This document shows, one piece after another, positions 42,671 through 51,675 of a stretch of DNA of 64,000 nt. The position numbers were made by a program, and so were the translations under genes. A model generated the notes under the pieces. It saw nothing but the letters and a program-made list of their open reading frames with translations. It did not search any database and was not told the DNA's origin. The stretch is from NCBI GenBank assembly GCA_013177895.1, contig JABLXV010000006.1, positions 1 to 64,000 of the forward strand. The letters run 5' to 3'. The number at the start of each line of letters is the position of its first letter. Within the stretch, counting starts at the first letter, position 1. The DNA comes from Brevinematales bacterium. GTDB lineage: Bacteria; Spirochaetota; Brevinematia; Brevinematales; GWF1-51-8.

Positions 42671-42847
42671 TTATATCCCTAACTGTTTGCGGATCAGCAT
42701 GCATAACGTTTCTTTGATCTCGGAGTGGCGCGGAATCGGCGCAATTTTTCCGTTGTTTTCATTTTCGAATATATCGTGCCGGCTCCCGTGACGCTTAATA
42801 TGGCATCCTTTAGCCGTCAACTCCTTCAGGAACAGGGCTCGTTTCAA
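42671..42847 (-). CDS. hicA: HicA-family mRNA interferase toxin
   Basis: A protein of 58 residues starting at a TTG (42847-42845) that overlaps the HicB stop codon (TTGA). Sequence: KRALFLKELTAKGCHIKRHG, SRHDIFENENNGKIAPIPRH, SEIKETLCMLIRKQLGI. It has the double-stranded RNA-binding-like HicA fold, with the catalytic histidine in HGSRHDIF, the PIPRHSEI strand and the C-terminal helix of the family. HicA cleaves mRNA and is neutralised by HicB. The gene is intact, but the weak start suggests low, translation-coupled expression. Confidence 0.88.
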   Translation of the reverse strand: MKRALFLKELTAKGCHIKRHGSRHDIFENENNGKIAPIPRHSEIKETLCMLIRKQLGI

Positions 42848-43050
42848 GAATCGACCCCGATTTCTTTATGGAATACTTCGCTCTTTAGCTCGATTTCGTT
42901 CGAATCCGACATCATTTTATACGCGTCTTTCAGGTTGACTTCTAACTCCTCGACGGTCTTCCCTTGACTGAATATCCCGGGAATCTCTTTCAGCCGCCCG
43001 ACATACCAACCTTCGTCCATCCAGTATTCCATTGTATAAGTATGAAGCAT
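42844..43050 (-). CDS. hicB: HicB-family antitoxin
   Basis: A protein of 68 residues: MEYWMDEGWYVGRLKEIPGI, FSQGKTVEELEVNLKDAYKM, with the HicB partial RNase H fold (G-Y-x-x-x-P-E-x-P-G pattern, then T-x-E-E-L). It lacks a C-terminal DNA-binding domain, so it may regulate only by binding the toxin. It precedes hicA, the reverse of the usual hicA-hicB order, and its stop overlaps the hicA start. GAGG precedes the ATG at 43050. Confidence 0.88.
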   Translation of the reverse strand: MLHTYTMEYWMDEGWYVGRLKEIPGIFSQGKTVEELEVNLKDAYKMMSDSNEIELKSEVFHKEIGVDS

Positions 43051-43148: not shown

Positions 43149-44138
43149 CTAGTCAATAAACCCCCGCATCTCGCCGAGAAACCGCACGTCCTCTTCGACG
43201 CTCCGTCCGCGGGTGGTCAGGTATCCCCCGGTGAGGAATCCGTTTACTCCCGCGAGCATCAGTAAGCCCTGGAAATCCTTCATCACAGTTTCGCGCCCGG
43301 CGGCGAACTTAATAACCGAGTGGGGATTCACGAGCCGGAATATCGCGAACGTTTTTACGGTCTCCATCACTGTGGGGGACGGGGCGTTTTCCAGCGCCGT
43401 ACCCGCTATCGGGACAAGGACGTTCAACGGGATAATATCCGCACCCGCGTCGCGGAGCGCATATGCGAGTTCCACCCGGTCGTCCATCGTCTCGCCAAGC
43501 CCCAGTATTCCCCCGGAGCAGATACGGATACCGTTCCGCTTCAGCAGGCGCAGCGTCTCGAAACGTTCCTCCACAGTATGGGTGGTTGCGACCAGCTCGC
43601 CGTACTTGGAGGGGTTGACTTGGAGGTTGTGATTATAATGGCGGATGCCGTGCTCGGCGAGCAGGCGGGCGGTCGCGCCGGATAGGACGCCCATCGACGC
43701 GCCGACGTCGAGCGACGGGTAGCGCGCGTGAATTTTATCGGCGGCGGCAAGCACATCGCGGAAATCATCGTCAGCCTCAGTAGCGCCGTATCCCGACGTG
43801 ACGATGCCGAAACAGTCCGCTCCGTTGGAATAAGCCTTTCCCGCGGCGGTCAGGATATCGTTCGGGGACATGAGCGGATAGGATTCGATTCCCGTACCGG
43901 CGTGTAGCGATTGGGCGCAGTAACGGCAATCCTCGGGACAGTTCCCGGACTTGGCGTTTAATATCGTGCAGATATGGATGCCGGGCGAATATTTCAGACG
44001 CACCTTATGGGCGAGGGCGATCAGGTCGGGGATATCGTGTCCGCGAAGCCCCGCGAGTTCCATCGCAAGTCCCTTATCGAGCGGTTTCCCCTCCAGCACA
44101 AATGTTGCTTTCTCAATCAGGCTATGGATATTTCGCAT
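43149..44138 (-). CDS. bioB: Biotin synthase
   Basis: A protein of 329 residues, normal for BioB, the radical SAM enzyme that inserts sulfur into dethiobiotin. The SAM cluster motif is CPEDCRYC in NAKSGNCPEDCRYCAQSLHA. Further marks: SYPLMSPNDILTAAGKAYSN, YNHNLQVNPSKYGELVATTH, ICSGGILGLGETMDDRVELA, PLNVLVPIAGTALENAPSPT and KFAAGRETVMKDFQGLLMLA with the auxiliary-cluster residues. It is monocistronic from a clear promoter at 44172-44200. No other bio genes are in the window. Confidence 0.96.
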   Translation of the reverse strand: MRNIHSLIEKATFVLEGKPLDKGLAMELAGLRGHDIPDLIALAHKVRLKYSPGIHICTILNAKSGNCPEDCRYCAQSLHAGTGIESYPLMSPNDILTAAGKAYSNGADCFGIVTSGYGATEADDDFRDVLAAADKIHARYPSLDVGASMGVLSGATARLLAEHGIRHYNHNLQVNPSKYGELVATTHTVEERFETLRLLKRNGIRICSGGILGLGETMDDRVELAYALRDAGADIIPLNVLVPIAGTALENAPSPTVMETVKTFAIFRLVNPHSVIKFAAGRETVMKDFQGLLMLAGVNGFLTGGYLTTRGRSVEEDVRFLGEMRGFID

Positions 44139-44171
44139 AATGTATACCTGTTATTAAATATAGTTTACATA

Positions 44172-44200
44172 ATTATAGTGCCCCGGCGAAAAAACGTCAA
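44172..44200 (-). promoter_or_regulatory. Sigma-70 promoter of bioB
   Basis: TTGACG (44200-44195), 17 bases, perfect TATAAT (44177-44172) on the minus strand, 33 bases upstream of the bioB ATG. The -35 is only two bases from the 37-bp direct repeat at 44203. No BirA-type operator (TTGTAAACC-like) is obvious, although GTAAACTATATT follows the -10. Confidence 0.8.
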
Positions 44201-44202
44201 AC

Positions 44203-44239
44203 AATTCTTGAGAAAAACGGGCGATGGGTGCATATTATA
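44203..44239. repeat. 37-bp direct repeat, left copy, flanking a toxin-antitoxin module
   Basis: AATTCTTGAGAAAAACGGGC and 17 further bases are identical at 44203-44239 and 44869-44905. The bases on either side differ, so the identity is exactly bounded. The right copy lies where the promoter of the large secreted gene (44924) should be. Confidence 0.92.
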
Positions 44240-44287
44240 CCAGTTATGAAATAGTTCTATTTTTAATCGGTGGCCAGTCCGCGATTC

Positions 44288-44317
44288 TTGGAATTATTTT
44301 TAAGGATTATTTATAAT
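44288..44317 (+). promoter_or_regulatory. Sigma-70 promoter of the toxin-antitoxin pair
   Basis: TTGGAA at 44288-44293, 18 bases, TATAAT at 44312-44317, 35 bases before the antitoxin ATG. Confidence 0.65.
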
Positions 44318-44352
44318 AGTTCCAGAAAGACGTGCAAATAGTAGGAGGGAAA

Positions 44353-44562
44353 ATGTCATCCGGCGTTCGTGAAGTCATCGAAGAATTCGAGCAGCTCTCG
44401 GAATCAGATAAAGAGTATGTCGCGGAAATTATTCAGAAGCAGATGAATGATCTGAAACGGGAGGAAATTTTTAACCGCTCGTTGGAAGCGCGTTCTAATA
44501 TGGAAAAGGAACATTCTTCAATCGGGACTGCCGGCGAATTGCTACAGGATTTGGAAAAATGA
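44353..44562 (+). CDS. Antitoxin of a YafQ/RelE-type system
   Basis: A protein of 69 residues from the ATG at 44353, seven bases after GGAGG. It is helical and acidic (SSGVREVIEEFEQLSESDKE, YVAEIIQKQMNDLKREEIFN) and ends IGTAGELLQDLEK, the kind of C-terminal clamp that wraps RelE/YafQ toxins. The EFEQLSESDKEYVAEII start is common in addiction-module proteins next to RelE-like toxins. ATGA overlap with the toxin gene. No clear helix-turn-helix or ribbon-helix-helix, so autoregulation is uncertain. Confidence 0.78.
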   Translation: MSSGVREVIEEFEQLSESDKEYVAEIIQKQMNDLKREEIFNRSLEARSNMEKEHSSIGTAGELLQDLEK

Positions 44563-44828
44563 TCCAATTCATCTGGGATTCGGCGTTTAAGCGAAGATAT
44601 AAGAAGGTAATTGAAACGCACCCTGAATGGAAAGATCGGTTTACGGAATCAGTCATATTATTTTCAGAAAATCCCTATCATAAGAAACTAAAAACCCATA
44701 AACTCTCCGGTAAATTAAAAGGCCTCTGGGCATTCAGCGTCGACTATGACTGCAGGGTAGTTTTTGAGTTTATTAAGGAAGATACCGTTCTGCTTATCGA
44801 TATCGGTTCCCATGACGACGTCTATTAA
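44559..44828 (+). CDS. RelE/YafQ-family toxin
   Basis: A protein of 89 residues: IWDSAFKRRYKKVIETHPEW, then HKKLKTHKLSGKLKGLWAFS, VDYDCRVVFEFIKEDTVLLI and DIGSHDDVY. The LKTHKLSGKLKG...WS.D.R....F pattern and terminal IGSHDDVY are those of YafQ-type ribosome-dependent mRNA interferases of the RelE/ParE superfamily, with the terminal histidine-aspartate kept. It is translationally coupled to the antitoxin. The pair lies between two identical 37-bp repeats. Confidence 0.88.
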   Translation: MIQFIWDSAFKRRYKKVIETHPEWKDRFTESVILFSENPYHKKLKTHKLSGKLKGLWAFSVDYDCRVVFEFIKEDTVLLIDIGSHDDVY

Positions 44829-44868
44829 ATCCCCCCGCCGCTTATCATATAAGTGCGGTTCCGTCTCA

Positions 44869-44905
44869 AATTCTTGAGAAAAACGGGCGATGGGTGCATA
44901 TTATA
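44869..44905. repeat. 37-bp direct repeat, right copy
   Basis: Exact copy of 44203-44239. It contains TTGAGA, 17 bases, CATATT and lies 18 bases before the GTG at 44924, so it is probably the promoter of the large secreted gene. A diverged relative (GGGTACATATTGTATTATC) lies before the paralogue, at 48425-48443. Confidence 0.85.
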
Positions 44906-44923: not shown

Positions 44924-47900
44924 GTGAAAAAATACCTTCCTTCTATAATAACATTCCTCATCGCCGCGTACGTGGTTCCGTCAACCGCTCAAAGCGGTAT
45001 CGTCCCCGCGATGAAGGGGCTTGAGACGGCATATCCGTCGCTACCCGCGCAGACGGCGATCCTTTCGGGGAATAATGTCCCCGGCGCCGATTTCCAGAAG
45101 GCGTTTATCAGCCTCAAGAAATATATCGCCGGTTCCGATCCCGACGTGCTTCACGGGTGGAAACTGGTGCTGCAGGAGGAGTATTTCCTGAAATGCAGCG
45201 CTCCGGCGGCGAACGGGATAAAGATCGACGGGAAGGATACGGAGTGGGGGGACGGCGGGTTTGCCGTGAACGACAGCCCCACAAATAACCCGTCGAAAAA
45301 TCCCGCGCTCGATATTATAGGCGCGAGTTTCGTTTTCGACGGGGATACCCTTTACGGGGTCTACCGCACGGCAAAGAAACCCGCCAATCCGGGATGGTAT
45401 CTCGTTCTGATCGACTATACCGGCGACGGGTACTGCGATTTTCAGGTCGGGACGGGATGGAACGCACAGGGTGTTCCGGCGATGTGGATGAACGATCTGA
45501 TCGCGAAGAAAAATTCCCTTCCCGTGAAGGCGGAATTCGCGGCGGGCGATGTGTTCGAGTTCTCCCTGAAATTATCCCAGTTCGGGCTGCCGGCGTCGAA
45601 ATATAAACCGAACATCCTGATATGGGCGCAGAGTTCCGATACGGCGTTCAAGGTTGTCGAAAGCTGCGGGCCCGCGACGGTGATGCACCGGATGGAAAAC
45701 TCCGCGCTCGCGTTGTATCTCGCCCTGCTCGCGCGGGACTGCTACCGGCCGGGCGACAGTATCACCGCCGCAATCGCGCTCGCGAATAGTCTGGTCTATT
45801 CCCTGGCGGATGACGAGGTGAAAAAGGCCATCGCGGACGACGCGGTCAAGCAGTACCAATTCTACCGGAAAATCGTCGATTGGCAGGATAGCTGGAAATG
45901 CCCCTACGCGCTCGAAAAAGCGTCCCTCGTGCCGAAGATTTTCTGGGCCGACCGCGCCCGATATTCCCACTATTATTTTACCGACGCGATGTACCGGATG
46001 AAACTGGACAAGATGAATATGGACATCTACCGCGAGTTTGTCGACCGTATCGATGTGCTGGATAAAATCCATAATATTATCGTTGATAACGGCCTTGCGG
46101 TAATAGCTATGGAAGTGACCGCCCGTAACCTCGAGGACTGGGTGCACGCCCACCGGATGTACCTCAGCAGTATCGAGAATATGGATACCTTCTACGCCGA
46201 TAACGTGGCATGGAAGGAGCAGTGGGAGAACGCCCACAAATTATATAAGGAAGGAAAGTACTATGTGGAGTACTTCGGCAAGAAGTACCGTTGGGACGAT
46301 TTCCGCTGGATCAACTACCAGTACAATCACCTAGTGAAGGACGGGTGTTTTATCGGCGACTGCGGGGATACGACGGTCGCGCAGATGGCGTTTTACCGCG
46401 CCTCGGGAATAGCTCCCGCCTCGTTCCAGCATACCGACCCCTACGGTACCGCGCTCGCCTCGCATAACTATCCCGCGCATTACGACCCCAACCTCAAGCG
46501 GTGGTATGTCTATCAAATCCCGCGTTTCTACTCCGGCGGGAAAGAGAAACCCGATATGCCGCTTGTGTTCTATTTTAACAAGCCCTACTGGCACCCGTGG
46601 AAAAGCGCCGATAACTGGATAAATATTAAAAAAGGCAATGCGAATTATGCCTTTTCCTATTTCTACCCCGGCGAGCAGGTCAATTCCTATGCCTACGCGA
46701 ATTTTATGACAATGGGGATGTCCGAATCGCTCTTGGAGTTTTTATTCTTCTCGAATATTACCCTGCGGGAAGGGACGATTTTCAATAAAGATACCGCTCC
46801 GAAGAAGATCGCCGATACCGACGGAGACGGACTTCCCGATACGCTCGAGAAGGACTATAGTACCGACGCGAAGAAGTGGGACTCCGACGGCGACGGGTAT
46901 TCCGATTATTGGGAGATTACCCACGCGCTCAACCCTATGAAAAAGACCCTGCCCTCACAGTTGCCGGGAGTTCCGCTCGCGGTGGACGGATTCCTCGGGG
47001 ACTGGAACGCCGTGCAAGGAAAAATTTATGTAATCGATCCGCCGTCCGATTCCACTGTCAAGCAGAATGTTTACGATATCTCGAATTTCAATGTTTACTC
47101 CGATAGTCAAAACATCTACCTCGGCGCGGGGTTCTACGGAAATCCCGCCGGGAATAAATCGTACAACCTCGAGTTCTGGATCAATTTCCCCGGGATGACT
47201 CCCGCGACCTACTGGTACGGCGGGGGCTATATGTCGGTATGGGGTACGCATAACCTGCTCCGAAGCGCGATCTCAGTTTTAACCCCCGATGGAAAATGGA
47301 CGAACCTTATCTGCTCGATCGGCAACGATTACATTATCACCGGGAACGCGCTCGAAGCGGCGCTCCCGGTGAAGGTTATCGGCAATCCCGTATGGGCGGA
47401 TATCACGTTCCTGGTCAATTCCGGCCCCGAGGGGAAAGAGGTGGACGGCTCCGATTCGACTGAACGGATTATCTATCAGCTCCAGCCGGACGCGGACGGG
47501 GACAACCTTTCCGACAGCGTCGAGAAGGCCATCGGTACCGATCTGTCGAAATGGGACACGGACGGCGATATGGTCTCCGATTTCTGGGAATGGCGGCACG
47601 GTTCCGACCCGTTATCGGCGGGCAGTCCCGGGTTGAAGGGTAAGATCGCGCTCGACGGGTTTTCCGCCGATATCGCGGCGTTTCCCGGCGCGGTGAGTGT
47701 CGCCGACCCGCAGGGCGACCCGGTGACTCAGGAGAATATGTATGACATCTCTACGATTGCCGCCGCAGTATCGGGGGATACCCTTTATATCGGGGTGAAA
47801 TTCTATAATAACCCGCTCGGGAACCTCGGCAAGAATCATTGCCTGTGGATTACGGCCGACGGCGGGCGGGAGTACTGGATCGGCGGGGGGTGGAATACGA

Positions 47901-48139
47901 TGGGCGGAATAGACTATAATCAGCCGTTACTCCTGCGCGCGAAAAAGGGCGAGCAGTGGACGGATATTCCCGATACCAAGGGCGCGGAAATCGCGATCAA
48001 GCAGGACGTCGAGTTCGCGATACCGCTGAAGTATATCGGGAATCCCAAGACGATATCGTTTATATATTACGTGACGTTCGGCCCGGAGGACAAGGAGACA
48101 TACGGCGCGGATCAGTCGGAATTAATCAAGGTAAAATGA
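44924..48139 (+). CDS. Giant secreted protein 1: CBM9-like / transglutaminase-like / TSP3 modules
   Basis: A protein of 1071 residues from a GTG at 44924 after AGGAGG. Signal peptide: KKYLPSIITFLIAAYVVPST. Module order: CBM9/DOMON-like domain (about 98-250; GIKIDGKDTEWGDGGFAVND, GDGYCDFQVGTGW); a long helical region (250-470); a transglutaminase-like segment with Cys480 in GCFIGDCGDTTVAQMAFYRA and His514 in ALASHNYPAHYDP; a first calcium-binding TSP3 pair (628-675; DTDGDGLPDTLEKDY, DSDGDGYSDYWE); a second CBM9-like domain (about 684-845); a second TSP3 pair (855-900); a third CBM9-like domain to the end. Its neighbour at 48457 has the same plan. Probably a calcium-stabilised surface or secreted enzyme or adhesin bound to glycan; the reaction is not known. 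Confidence 0.8.
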   Translation: MKKYLPSIITFLIAAYVVPSTAQSGIVPAMKGLETAYPSLPAQTAILSGNNVPGADFQKAFISLKKYIAGSDPDVLHGWKLVLQEEYFLKCSAPAANGIKIDGKDTEWGDGGFAVNDSPTNNPSKNPALDIIGASFVFDGDTLYGVYRTAKKPANPGWYLVLIDYTGDGYCDFQVGTGWNAQGVPAMWMNDLIAKKNSLPVKAEFAAGDVFEFSLKLSQFGLPASKYKPNILIWAQSSDTAFKVVESCGPATVMHRMENSALALYLALLARDCYRPGDSITAAIALANSLVYSLADDEVKKAIADDAVKQYQFYRKIVDWQDSWKCPYALEKASLVPKIFWADRARYSHYYFTDAMYRMKLDKMNMDIYREFVDRIDVLDKIHNIIVDNGLAVIAMEVTARNLEDWVHAHRMYLSSIENMDTFYADNVAWKEQWENAHKLYKEGKYYVEYFGKKYRWDDFRWINYQYNHLVKDGCFIGDCGDTTVAQMAFYRASGIAPASFQHTDPYGTALASHNYPAHYDPNLKRWYVYQIPRFYSGGKEKPDMPLVFYFNKPYWHPWKSADNWINIKKGNANYAFSYFYPGEQVNSYAYANFMTMGMSESLLEFLFFSNITLREGTIFNKDTAPKKIADTDGDGLPDTLEKDYSTDAKKWDSDGDGYSDYWEITHALNPMKKTLPSQLPGVPLAVDGFLGDWNAVQGKIYVIDPPSDSTVKQNVYDISNFNVYSDSQNIYLGAGFYGNPAGNKSYNLEFWINFPGMTPATYWYGGGYMSVWGTHNLLRSAISVLTPDGKWTNLICSIGNDYIITGNALEAALPVKVIGNPVWADITFLVNSGPEGKEVDGSDSTERIIYQLQPDADGDNLSDSVEKAIGTDLSKWDTDGDMVSDFWEWRHGSDPLSAGSPGLKGKIALDGFSADIAAFPGAVSVADPQGDPVTQENMYDISTIAAAVSGDTLYIGVKFYNNPLGNLGKNHCLWITADGGREYWIGGGWNTMGGIDYNQPLLLRAKKGEQWTDIPDTKGAEIAIKQDVEFAIPLKYIGNPKTISFIYYVTFGPEDKETYGADQSELIKVK

Positions 48140-48212
48140 AAATTGCGCAAACTGCGGGAATGGTTTTTATGGAAAAATGGGGGTGTCTTAAAATCCTATA
48201 TTTGAGAAGGTT

Positions 48213-48347
48213 TGTCGTTGCGAACCCCGCGCTGTAATATATTTTCGATGCGAGGGGTGAAGCAATCCATCATATTAACTGATAAATAAAACAGACTGCT
48301 TCTACCGCGCTTCAAAAAATTTTGTAGCGCGGCATCGCGGTGACAGA
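48213..48347. repeat. TGTCATTGCGA-type palindromic repeat, copy D
   Basis: Starts TGTCGTTGCGAACCCCGCGC, contains GAAGCAATCCATCATATTAA and AACAGACTGCTTCTACCGC, ends GCGGCATCGCGGTGACAGA. It fills most of the spacer between the two giant secreted genes; its right half is like that of copy B. Confidence 0.82.
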
Positions 48348-48393
48348 CTTTTCCGCCATTTGTTTCCTTTGAAACAGAGTCTTTTTTTCGCCG

Positions 48394-48424
48394 AACAATC
48401 CCGCGCCTGCGGGAGATTGTTTTT
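48394..48424 (+). terminator. Hairpin with T-run before the second giant gene
   Basis: AACAATCCCGC (48394-48404) pairs with GCGGGAGATTGTT (one bulged base) and is followed by TTTT. It can end transcription from the first giant gene so that the second is controlled separately. Confidence 0.6.
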
Positions 48425-48456
48425 GGGTACATATTGTATTATCGAAGGAGGACGCA

Positions 48457-51400
48457 ATGAAGAGTATTCTTATTCGCGCGGCAGCGCTGGGGTTGTTTTT
48501 ATTTTCCGGAAATGTTCTTTTCGCGACGCCGGTCAAAATATCGCCGGAATCGCAGAAGCAATTAAAAAAACTCGAAGCGAAGTATCCGACCATCTACGCG
48601 CAGGTAAATACGGGCGCGGAGAACGATCTCCTCGGTATCGATTACGATAACGCGTTATACAATCTTTCAGGTTACCTCGCGGACACCGGGGCGGATATCC
48701 GTCAGGGTATGGATATGATTCTTCAGGCGTCGTTCTACCAGAGCAAGACGTCTCCCCCGGCGGATCAGGTAACAATCGACGGCGACGCTTCGGAATGGGC
48801 GGGGGCCGGATGGGATAAACTCGACGAGAAGGGCGATAACCCCGGTAAGAATCCCGCTCTCGATATTGTCCGTGCGAGCGCGGTCATCCATGACGGGATA
48901 CTCTATGGGGTCATTGAAACGGCGAAAAAGCCCACATTCCCCAACCGTTTTGTGGTGTATCTCGATACGACGGCGGACGGGTATTACGATTACCAGTTCA
49001 TCGCAGGATGGGAAAAAGACGGCACGAAAGTTTCATGGATGAACGATTTTGTAAAGAAGGTATCCGGTTTCCCGTTTGAGGCCGATGTCTTCTGCGGGAA
49101 TGTCTTCGAGTACGCAATCCCGCTGGACCAGATCAGTACAAAATTAAAAGATATGCCTGAAATGATAAATATAGGCGTACAGACGGCGGACAAGGATTTT
49201 AAGTATACCGAGGGGCTTGACCTTATCCCCGTTTGCCGGGTGATGGAGAACCTGCCGTTAACCATGCTTCTCTACCTCATGGATAAAGGCGTCGCGCCCG
49301 AAGGGGACAGTATCCCCGAGGCGCTTTCGCTTGCGAACGGATTCCTTTACTCGGTTTCGGATAAAACCGTCCGCGGGATGATAGCCAAGGATTTGGTGAA
49401 ACAGTACGAACTCTATAAAAAAATCTGCGAATGGCAGGAAGGGTGGGGATGCCCCTACCCGCTGGAGAAACTGCCCGTCATCCCGAAAATATTCTGGGCA
49501 GACCGTTCGCGTTATTCCGACTCTGCAATTTACGATGCCATGCGGATATTCAAGGTGAAGTCCGTTACCAAGGAAATCTACAACGAGTTTGTCGATAAAA
49601 TAGGCATACTCGAAGCGATTCACGGGCTTGTTGTGAAAAACAATCTGGCAAAAAAGGATATATCGATTACCGCGGGGGTGTTGGACGAATGGGTACACCG
49701 TTACCGGCTATACCTCAGCAGTATGGAAAACCTCGAGATGTTCAACAAGTGGGGATGGTACACGGATGAAATGCTCGCCAAAGCGAAAAAGATGAAGAAC
49801 GAGGGGAAGTATTTCCAGAATTACTTCGGACGGGAACACCGTTGGGACGATTTTGCATGGCTGAATTACCAGTATGGCCATTTTATCAAGGACGGGTGTT
49901 TTATCGGCGACTGCGGGAGCACGACGGTCGTCCAGATGGGGGTATACCGGATGGCGGGAATTGCGCCGGTCTCTTTCCAGATGATCGATCTATCCGATTA
50001 TGCCGTCTACACGCATAACTTTCCCGGCTACTTCGACCCCGCGCTCAACCGGTGGTGTTTCTATCAGGTGCCGAATCCCATCGGGCCCGGCGGGAAGTAT
50101 ATGGGCGATAATGCGATCGTTCTGCATTTTAACAAGCCGTTTCCGCATCCGTGGCTATATTACGGAAACTATCAGAATATAAAGGTAGGAAAGAAAGAAG
50201 TCTGCGCCTACTTATACTATCCAGGGGAAATGACGGTGGTTCAGAAGATGATTAATTTCCTGAAAACGGGTCTCCCGGCTAAGAAAATGGATACTATTTT
50301 TATGACGAATATCACGCTGGTAAAAGGGTTATTATTCGATAAAACCTCCGCGCCGGATAAGCTGACCGATTCCGATAACGACGGCCTGTACGATATAGTG
50401 GAAAACGATATCGGGCTGAATGCCGCCGGTTGGGATTCCGACGGCGACGGGTATTCCGATTTATGGGAGCTTCATAACGGGCAAAATCCGCTCAAGACGG
50501 ACGCATGGGGCACGGTCGCGGTCGACGGATTTATCGGAGAGTGGAAAGGGTCGGATGGCGTAACGGTGGTGAAAGACCCTCAGGGCGACTCGACGGTAAA
50601 AGTAAATGTTTTCGATATAGCCGCCTTTTATGTTCTTCCCAAGGACGAAAAAATCTATCTGGGATGCGAGTTCTTCGGCGAACCGGCGAAAAGCAGTCTC
50701 AAGGTTTTCGGGTTCTGGATCGACGCGCCGGGACGGTTCCCGGTCTCCTACTGGTTCGGGGTATACGACAAGGAGTGGGGTTCGTATACCGCGATGGCCG
50801 GGAATATGGAAGTCAATTACCAGCCTGAAAAATGGAGCAATCTTAATTCAGTATTGGACGAGCATTATGTGATCGGCAAGGATATAGAAGCGGCGCTTCC
50901 GATGGCGTATATTTACTATCCGGTCTGGTTATCGGTGAAAGTGATACTGACATCCGGCCCGAAGGGTAATGAAGTGAGAGGATCGGACGAGGCGGATCGT
51001 GTGTACATCAAGATTGCTGAGGACGGCGATAACGACAGTCTTTCCGACGAGTTCGAGATAAAAATCGGCGCCGATCCCGCGAAGTGGGATACCGACGGCG
51101 ACCTGATATCGGATAACTGGGAGTACTGGCACGGGTACGACCCGTTATCGGCGAAAAGCCCCGCGTTGAAGAATCAGGCCGCGCTCGACGGATTTGCCGA
51201 CGACATCGAGAAACTCCCCGGAGCGGCGATCGGGAACGATCCCAAGGGCGACACGCTCCTGCAGGATAACGGTTACGATATCGCGTCGATCGCCGCCGCG
51301 AAGGCGGGCGGGAATTTATACATCGGGGTGAAATTCCACGGCGATAACACTTATAAGTCGTGCGTGCATTATGCGTTGGAGATAACCGCCGACGGGTCGC

Positions 51401-51675
51401 GGCAGTATTGGGTGGGTTCGGGATGGGATACGATGGCCGGGCCGGATATCTACCAGAGTCTGTGGATTACCAAGAAATCAGGGAAAAGCGGGGATTGGCC
51501 GGCTATTCCGAAAATGGACGGCGCATGGCTGTATGCCAAACGCGACGCGGAATTTGTCATACCGCTGGCCTATCTGGGTAATCCTAAAACGATTACTGTG
51601 AAGGCGGCGGTGACAATAAAAACCAAGGAAAATGATAATCAATGGAATGACGATTCCGGGGAGCTGAAATTATAA
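48457..51675 (+). CDS. Giant secreted protein 2: CBM9-like / transglutaminase-like / TSP3 modules
   Basis: A protein of 1072 residues, tandem paralogue of the gene before it. GGAGGACGCA precedes the ATG; signal peptide KSILIRAAALGLFLFSGNVLFA. Same order: CBM9-like (about 105-265; QVTIDGDASEWAGAGWDKLD), helical region, transglutaminase-like segment with Cys486 (DGCFIGDCGSTTVVQMGVYR) and His520 (YTHNFPGYFDPALNRW), TSP3 pair (634-680; DSDNDGLYDIVENDI, DSDGDGYSDLWE), CBM9-like (687-845), TSP3 pair (854-898), CBM9-like to the end. The best kept stretch between the two is around the cysteine (HFIKDGCFIGDCGSTTV), which argues that it is an active site. A third catalytic acid at the usual distance is not evident. 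Confidence 0.8.
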   Translation: MKSILIRAAALGLFLFSGNVLFATPVKISPESQKQLKKLEAKYPTIYAQVNTGAENDLLGIDYDNALYNLSGYLADTGADIRQGMDMILQASFYQSKTSPPADQVTIDGDASEWAGAGWDKLDEKGDNPGKNPALDIVRASAVIHDGILYGVIETAKKPTFPNRFVVYLDTTADGYYDYQFIAGWEKDGTKVSWMNDFVKKVSGFPFEADVFCGNVFEYAIPLDQISTKLKDMPEMINIGVQTADKDFKYTEGLDLIPVCRVMENLPLTMLLYLMDKGVAPEGDSIPEALSLANGFLYSVSDKTVRGMIAKDLVKQYELYKKICEWQEGWGCPYPLEKLPVIPKIFWADRSRYSDSAIYDAMRIFKVKSVTKEIYNEFVDKIGILEAIHGLVVKNNLAKKDISITAGVLDEWVHRYRLYLSSMENLEMFNKWGWYTDEMLAKAKKMKNEGKYFQNYFGREHRWDDFAWLNYQYGHFIKDGCFIGDCGSTTVVQMGVYRMAGIAPVSFQMIDLSDYAVYTHNFPGYFDPALNRWCFYQVPNPIGPGGKYMGDNAIVLHFNKPFPHPWLYYGNYQNIKVGKKEVCAYLYYPGEMTVVQKMINFLKTGLPAKKMDTIFMTNITLVKGLLFDKTSAPDKLTDSDNDGLYDIVENDIGLNAAGWDSDGDGYSDLWELHNGQNPLKTDAWGTVAVDGFIGEWKGSDGVTVVKDPQGDSTVKVNVFDIAAFYVLPKDEKIYLGCEFFGEPAKSSLKVFGFWIDAPGRFPVSYWFGVYDKEWGSYTAMAGNMEVNYQPEKWSNLNSVLDEHYVIGKDIEAALPMAYIYYPVWLSVKVILTSGPKGNEVRGSDEADRVYIKIAEDGDNDSLSDEFEIKIGADPAKWDTDGDLISDNWEYWHGYDPLSAKSPALKNQAALDGFADDIEKLPGAAIGNDPKGDTLLQDNGYDIASIAAAKAGGNLYIGVKFHGDNTYKSCVHYALEITADGSRQYWVGSGWDTMAGPDIYQSLWITKKSGKSGDWPAIPKMDGAWLYAKRDAEFVIPLAYLGNPKTITVKAAVTIKTKENDNQWNDDSGELKL

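Follow-up and report, generated by a model that had tools for sequence, protein, structure and literature searches.

The locus described here lies in a 64,000-nucleotide stretch of DNA, which was analysed as a whole and is called the window below, from the 3.6-Mb genome G000 (Spirochaetota, Brevinematales kin). In it, a small toxin–antitoxin (TA) gene pair stands between bioB and a giant gene and is flanked on both sides by the same 37-bp sequence. The comparison set consisted of MAGs with four congeners, and the giant-gene region was present in three same-genus genomes, G001, G002 and G003. The features of the locus, in window coordinates, are as follows.

43149–44138, minus strand: bioB, biotin synthase, the left neighbour (TIGR00433, 337 bits against a cut-off of 225)
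44172–44200, minus strand: bioB promoter, TTGACG-17-TATAAT, as read from the sequence
44203–44239, plus strand: left 37-bp copy, promoter-like (TTGAGA..TATTAT), adjoining the bioB promoter and now facing the antitoxin gene; exact repeat, with a left flank continuous with the pair-less sites of G001 and G003
44240–44868, no strand assigned: putative inserted segment, 629 bp between the copies, absent from G001 and G003
44288–44317, plus strand: putative TA operon promoter, TTGGAA-18-TATAAT, 88% kept in G002 over 44285–44318
44353–44562, plus strand: antitoxin gene, 69 aa, with its ATG at 44353 and a stop codon ending at 44562
44559–44828, plus strand: toxin gene, 89 aa, RelE/ParE superfamily and YafQ-like by profile matches, with a 4-nt overlap with the antitoxin stop
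44869–44905, plus strand: right 37-bp copy, the apparent giant gene promoter; exact repeat, with a right flank continuous with the pair-less sites
44924–48139, plus strand: giant gene, 1071 aa, with TSP3 repeats, the right neighbour and probable original owner of the duplicated promoter

The two copies of the repeat, AATTCTTGAGAAAAACGGGCGATGGGTGCATATTATA, are direct and identical at 37 of 37 positions, with a start-to-start spacing of 666 bp in a repeat search of the window; the number of exact 37-mer pairs expected by chance in 64 kb is ~1e-13. Both copies read as sigma-70-like promoters (TTGAGA-17-CATATT, with TATTAT 2 bases further on), and a search of the window revealed no hairpin or inverted repeat in them. 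To the right of the right copy follow the giant gene's leader and its ribosome-binding site. The first-pass annotation had proposed that the repeats bracket exactly a RelE/YafQ-type pair, that the left copy stands beside the bioB promoter and that the right copy is the native promoter of the giant gene. Indeed, the coordinates were confirmed and the two open reading frames of the pair stand alone between the copies, the left copy starts next to the -35 hexamer of the divergent bioB promoter, and the single copy found in pair-less relatives appears to serve as the giant gene promoter there. A repeat that is an abundant, unrelated promoter element would have told against that annotation; a search of the whole genome allowing up to three mismatches located two sites only.

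The segment between the copies has a GC content of ~40% versus about 58% outside it (55–63% in the genes on either side). The repeat search found no terminal inverted repeats around this segment, and no transposase or integrase is encoded between the copies. The small antitoxin gene lies directly upstream of the toxin gene and the two overlap by 4 nt (44559–44562), a translationally coupled arrangement. The toxin scored above the cut-offs of Pfam PF15738 YafQ_toxin (38.7 bits, cut-off 30), PF05016 ParE_toxin (27 bits, cut-off 23) and NCBIfam TIGR02385 RelE_StbE (34.8 bits, cut-off 27.9), and far under that of the YafQ equivalog TIGR00053 (27.8 bits, cut-off 87.25). As judged from its sequence, the family of the toxin is clear, and the protein is YafQ-like rather than YafQ proper. 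The antitoxin matched no curated antitoxin family and is not DinJ/RelB by any curated model; its homologues are located upstream of toxins in other Spirochaetota and lie adjacent to toxins in genomes G031 and G132. The two proteins are predicted to act as toxin and antitoxin. A search for a donor locus of the pair found none, the nearest toxin being 56–59% identical.

Several other features surround the locus. An inverted motif, TGTAAAC-N15-GTATACA, upstream of bioB (window 44140–44172) resembles a BirA operator and is kept in G001. Directly downstream of bioB lies a HicA toxin gene with a UPF0150-like partner (42671–43050); this pair is present in G001, absent in G003 and was not seen at this place in G002, and a repeat bracket was looked for around it and none was found. 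The giant gene is the first of two tandem paralogues that are 44% identical (window 44924–51675). Among the relatives (L028, L029), G001 has the first paralogue only, while G003 has only a relative of the second, beside bioB. The promoter of the second paralogue resembles the 37-bp repeat in its -10 part, and for this reason a promoter-to-promoter deletion between the paralogues is possible. Further away, the window holds a fluoride riboswitch (RF01734, 53808–53881; 54.8 bits, cut-off 34), and on contig C10 of the same genome there is a CRISPR-like array with 36-bp repeats and a period of 66 bp (L112, 5698–6652).

The related genomes provide both filled and empty versions of the site. G002, which shares 85% DNA identity with G000, carries the same pair between two repeat copies that differ from each other by 1 base and have a spacing of 687 bp. 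By DNA identity, G000 and G002 are each other's closest relatives. In G001 and G003 the pair is absent and one diverged copy of the repeat lies between bioB and the downstream gene, matching the 37-bp sequence at 28 and 27 of 37 positions, respectively, by direct comparison. These empty-site copies largely keep the -35-like (TTGAGA/TTGCGA) and -10-like (TATTAT/GATTAT) hexamers and differ in the spacer. The sequence flanking the left copy on its left, CGTCAAAC, which contains the bioB -35 region, is identical in G001, while the sequence to the right of the right copy (the GGAGGC.CG leader before the start codon) runs on into the G001 leader. When the outer flanks of G000 or of G002 were joined, they aligned with the G001 site with 127 of 151 and 130 of 158 matching columns, respectively. 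By contrast, the inner flanks of both copies showed no match at the empty site. Because the empty-site sequence carries on outwards from both copies, into the left flank of the left one and the right flank of the right one, the 37 bp are read as a duplicated target, which from its sequence and position would be the promoter of the giant gene. The first-pass annotation had suggested an insertion that duplicated its target and had named pair-less relatives as the comparison to make; the natural empty sites of G001 and G003, with their single copies between bioB and the giant-gene side, lend support to that suggestion, and none of the relatives compared keeps two repeats without the pair. In sum, single-copy sites in two congeners, outer flanks continuous with them and a bracket shared with G002 define the locus.

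The origin that we consider highly probable is that, in the ancestor of G000 and G002, a TA pair that brought its own promoter inserted into the interval separating bioB from the giant gene and duplicated a 37-bp target. In this event, placed in the common ancestor of G000 and its sister, an AT-rich type II TA pair would have entered the short stretch that separates the divergently oriented promoters of bioB and the giant gene, and the target, the giant gene promoter, would have been copied so that one copy came to lie on each side of the pair. The giant gene would have kept an intact promoter and bioB would have been left untouched, which may explain why the insertion was tolerated. At the DNA level, incoming DNA would most likely have entered the target through repair or illegitimate recombination that left a copy of the target on either side. 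Because there is neither a transposase nor a terminal inverted repeat, we liken the event to “insertion with long target duplication” and not to ordinary transposition.

Four-fold-site identities between G000 and G002 are 70% for the antitoxin gene, 69% for the toxin gene, 72% for bioB and 74% for the giant gene. The agreement between pair and neighbours places the pair at the site before the G000/G002 split and shows that all of these genes diverged together, vertically. As the pair has not been lost since, its deletion must be rare or selected against (addiction); a precise deletion between the direct repeats is possible in principle, and current excision looks rare. In G002, a one-base deletion breaks the frame of the toxin gene (L027, 2274–2545) and the antitoxin gene is intact. 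This frame break could be decay or an assembly error.

The single-copy sites of G001 and G003 would look the same if the bracketed pair were ancestral and each of these genomes had lost it through a precise deletion between the 37-bp repeats, and the already broken appearance of the G002 toxin makes such loss plausible. However, this history calls for two independent losses in place of one gain, sits poorly with an insert that is AT-rich and foreign-looking and with a pair carried by the two closest relatives, and still requires an earlier target duplication to account for the repeats. We regard it as unlikely. Far less probable again is an origin of the repeats as integron attC sites or within an insertion sequence. 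Multi-copy attC-like or dispersed repeats do bracket some TA pairs of the phylum (L094, L066, L087, L088 and L157), but the window repeat occurs twice in its genome, forms no hairpin or inverted repeat and corresponds to a single promoter at the empty sites. Candidate elements were also considered individually. An integron cassette was rejected for the window, where there is no attC array and no inverted core and the genome holds two copies, and an insertion sequence or MITE was rejected on the lack of terminal inverted repeats and on a duplication of 37 bp, which is not short.

Other alternatives concern the left copy and are compatible with the insertion. Between G000 and G002, the left copy is identical at 36 of 37 positions and the right copy at 35 of 37, while non-coding DNA inside the insert, the TA promoter apart, has diverged to 50–65% identity, and that beside the left copy to 54–65%. 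At the neutral rate given by four-fold sites (~72% identity), at most one change in 37 has a probability of ~8e-5, and the left copy has therefore been constrained or converted. This copy is no longer needed by the giant gene, and perhaps it is held by constraint, possibly as a second promoter for the pair, or by conversion. The same conservation favours a present regulatory role, in which the left copy would co-regulate the pair with the giant gene or be bound by the antitoxin. We find such a role doubtful, as a conserved promoter belonging to the pair lies between the left copy and the antitoxin gene and the genome contains no further copies of the repeat; any such role may be secondary and not the origin of the repeat, given that G001 and G003 have the element without any pair. 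For that same reason, a repeat that originated as a TA operator is ruled out. Somewhat better placed, yet still on the unlikely side, is the proposal that gene conversion (concerted evolution), and not selection on each copy, maintains the similarity of the two. At position 17 of the repeat, both copies read G in G000 and both read A in G002, alike within genomes and different between them, which hints at conversion. Yet this is one informative site at which a parallel change is possible, and the right-hand G002 copy carries a difference of its own.

To place the locus in context, 40 loci in the phylum with homologous (YafQ-like) toxins, in regions mostly of 20 kb, were each given a score for direct repeats on either side of the pair; about 4,000 brackets shifted within those regions served as a control. 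Near-exact repeats with scores of 30 to 59 bracketed the pair at 7 of the 40 loci (the window, L066, L068, L072, L087, L088 and L093), and only a handful of the ~4,000 shifted brackets scored above 25. In an independent draw, 5 of 30 HicA loci were bracketed. Taken together, 12 of 70 TA loci compared to 0 of 30 NUDIX loci were bracketed (Fisher p ~0.016), where NUDIX genes, being mostly stable housekeeping genes, are an imperfect control, a closer one being gene pairs that are accessory but not addictive. About one in six of the sampled TA units of the phylum is bracketed, with repeat lengths of 26–235 bp. When all such repeats were listed, four brackets outside the YafQ-like set were found to hold other TA or TA-like pairs:

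L080: HicAB pair behind hsdS, assigned by Pfam
L085: DUF4160/DUF2442 pair, assigned by Pfam
L094: HigB-like/XRE pair, as read from the sequence
L096: PIN-domain pair, assigned by Pfam

A 1.2-Mb sample that was not chosen for TA genes gave few brackets beyond paralogues, CRISPR and dispersed repeats, namely a VapBC-like locus (L157) and a GIY-YIG locus (L119). At L119 (4739–5231, contig C17 of G000), a lone GIY-YIG nuclease gene lies between direct repeats of 59 bp and 86% identity that are absent from the rest of the genome.

When each repeat was counted in its own genome, the brackets fell into two classes. The repeats of L066, L087, L088, L157 and L094 are multi-copy (integron attC-like or dispersed), and that of L094 recurs in a long array in genome G125 (1.23–1.28 Mb). 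This array has integron-like repeats of ~60 bp and is common to several species of one genus. The second class, whose repeats occur at the two flanks only, has at least seven members: the window (37 bp), L068 (33 bp), L072 (65 bp), L080 (92 bp), L085 (44 bp), L093 (59 bp) and L096 (26 bp). Repeats of this class often correspond to a gene 3′ end or a promoter. At L080 (11690–12547), the duplicated part of the type I restriction specificity gene hsdS is its final 92 bases, stop codon included, and at L085 the upstream gene contributes its end, again with the stop. Outside this count, a 52-bp exact repeat at L232 reads like the 3′ end of the downstream, opposite-strand gene. Such copies are as expected if the insertions that persist are those in which the duplication restores the neighbour they interrupted. 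At L072 (from 10093, reverse complement), the right repeat after the toxin gene is followed by an apparent PIN-domain C-terminal part, possibly the remnant of a truncated second TA gene. A second empty site was sought for L093, L094 and L232 with no clean result, L094 involving the integron-like repeat, and the window is the one survey locus with documented empty sites. Of nine pairs in E. coli K-12, none was bracketed, the longest shared flank stretch being 13–14 bp, which suggests that the pattern is lineage-specific or that its traces fade.

We put forward only tentatively, as a possibility at somewhat less than even odds, that type II TA pairs of several families move as transposase-free two-gene units with long target duplications of tens to >200 bp, preferentially surviving where the promoter or 3′ end of a neighbour is restored. 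The enrichment of bracketed TA pairs has two readings: either this is how TA pairs insert, or genes of every kind can do so and, between direct repeats, only the addictive ones persist. A survival bias would be equally informative. If movement of this kind does extend across several families, it would explain in general terms how chromosomes acquire TA pairs, and the wider pattern would be of general interest if it holds against better controls. The bracketing itself is a clue to how TA pairs move without a transposase. The window offers a clean before-and-after view of one TA insertion and, with a footprint that seems to recur in several TA families, makes the question of integration testable.

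A review of type II TA systems describes their mechanisms of movement and integration as still unelucidated (PMC7167474). The same review lists E. coli chromosomal TA insertions, mazEF in relA-mazG, yafNO in dinB-yafP and ccdO157 in folA-apaH, in which, as in the window, the pair interrupts an otherwise undisturbed neighbourhood in some strains only; unlike the window, the K-12 cases tested have no flanking repeat above 14 bp. With dinJ-yafQ of E. coli the window pair shares a YafQ-like type II toxin (PF15738 and TIGR02385 above cut-off) and an upstream antitoxin gene with a 4-nt overlap. It differs in that its toxin falls under the YafQ equivalog cut-off and its antitoxin is not DinJ/RelB, and in that K-12 dinJ-yafQ is not bracketed by repeats. 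Superintegron TA cassettes, whose recombinational loss is opposed by addiction (PMC7167474), likewise place a TA pair between direct repeats, but the window has no attC array or hairpin, and its repeat has two copies in the genome and a single one at the empty site. In a Mycoplasma study, direct repeats beside one TA pair were taken as recombination scars (PMC8562856). A search of the open-access literature found no report of long target duplications for type II TA pairs.

The closest parallel is provided by restriction-modification systems, to which the phrase “insertion with long target duplication” has been applied (PMC3874152, PMC2654758 and PMC3031569). For these systems such insertion was inferred by Nobusato et al. 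(2000) and Furuta et al. (2010), both as cited in PMC3874152 and PMC3031569, with duplications of variable length, reported to be on the order of 100 bp and recognised via the empty site. The window differs in its cargo, a type II TA pair of ~0.6 kb, and in its duplication, 37 bp that appear to be a promoter. It has the same marks otherwise: exactly flanking repeats, a single-copy empty site and neither transposase, integrase nor inverted repeats. Like the restriction-modification insertions, it combines an addiction-type gene pair, no linked mobile element, long flanking copies of the target and an empty site for comparison. These features support the view that the locus is an insertion with long target duplication, a form already known for restriction-modification systems and here with a TA pair, and a shared mode of insertion would tie TA pairs to those systems.
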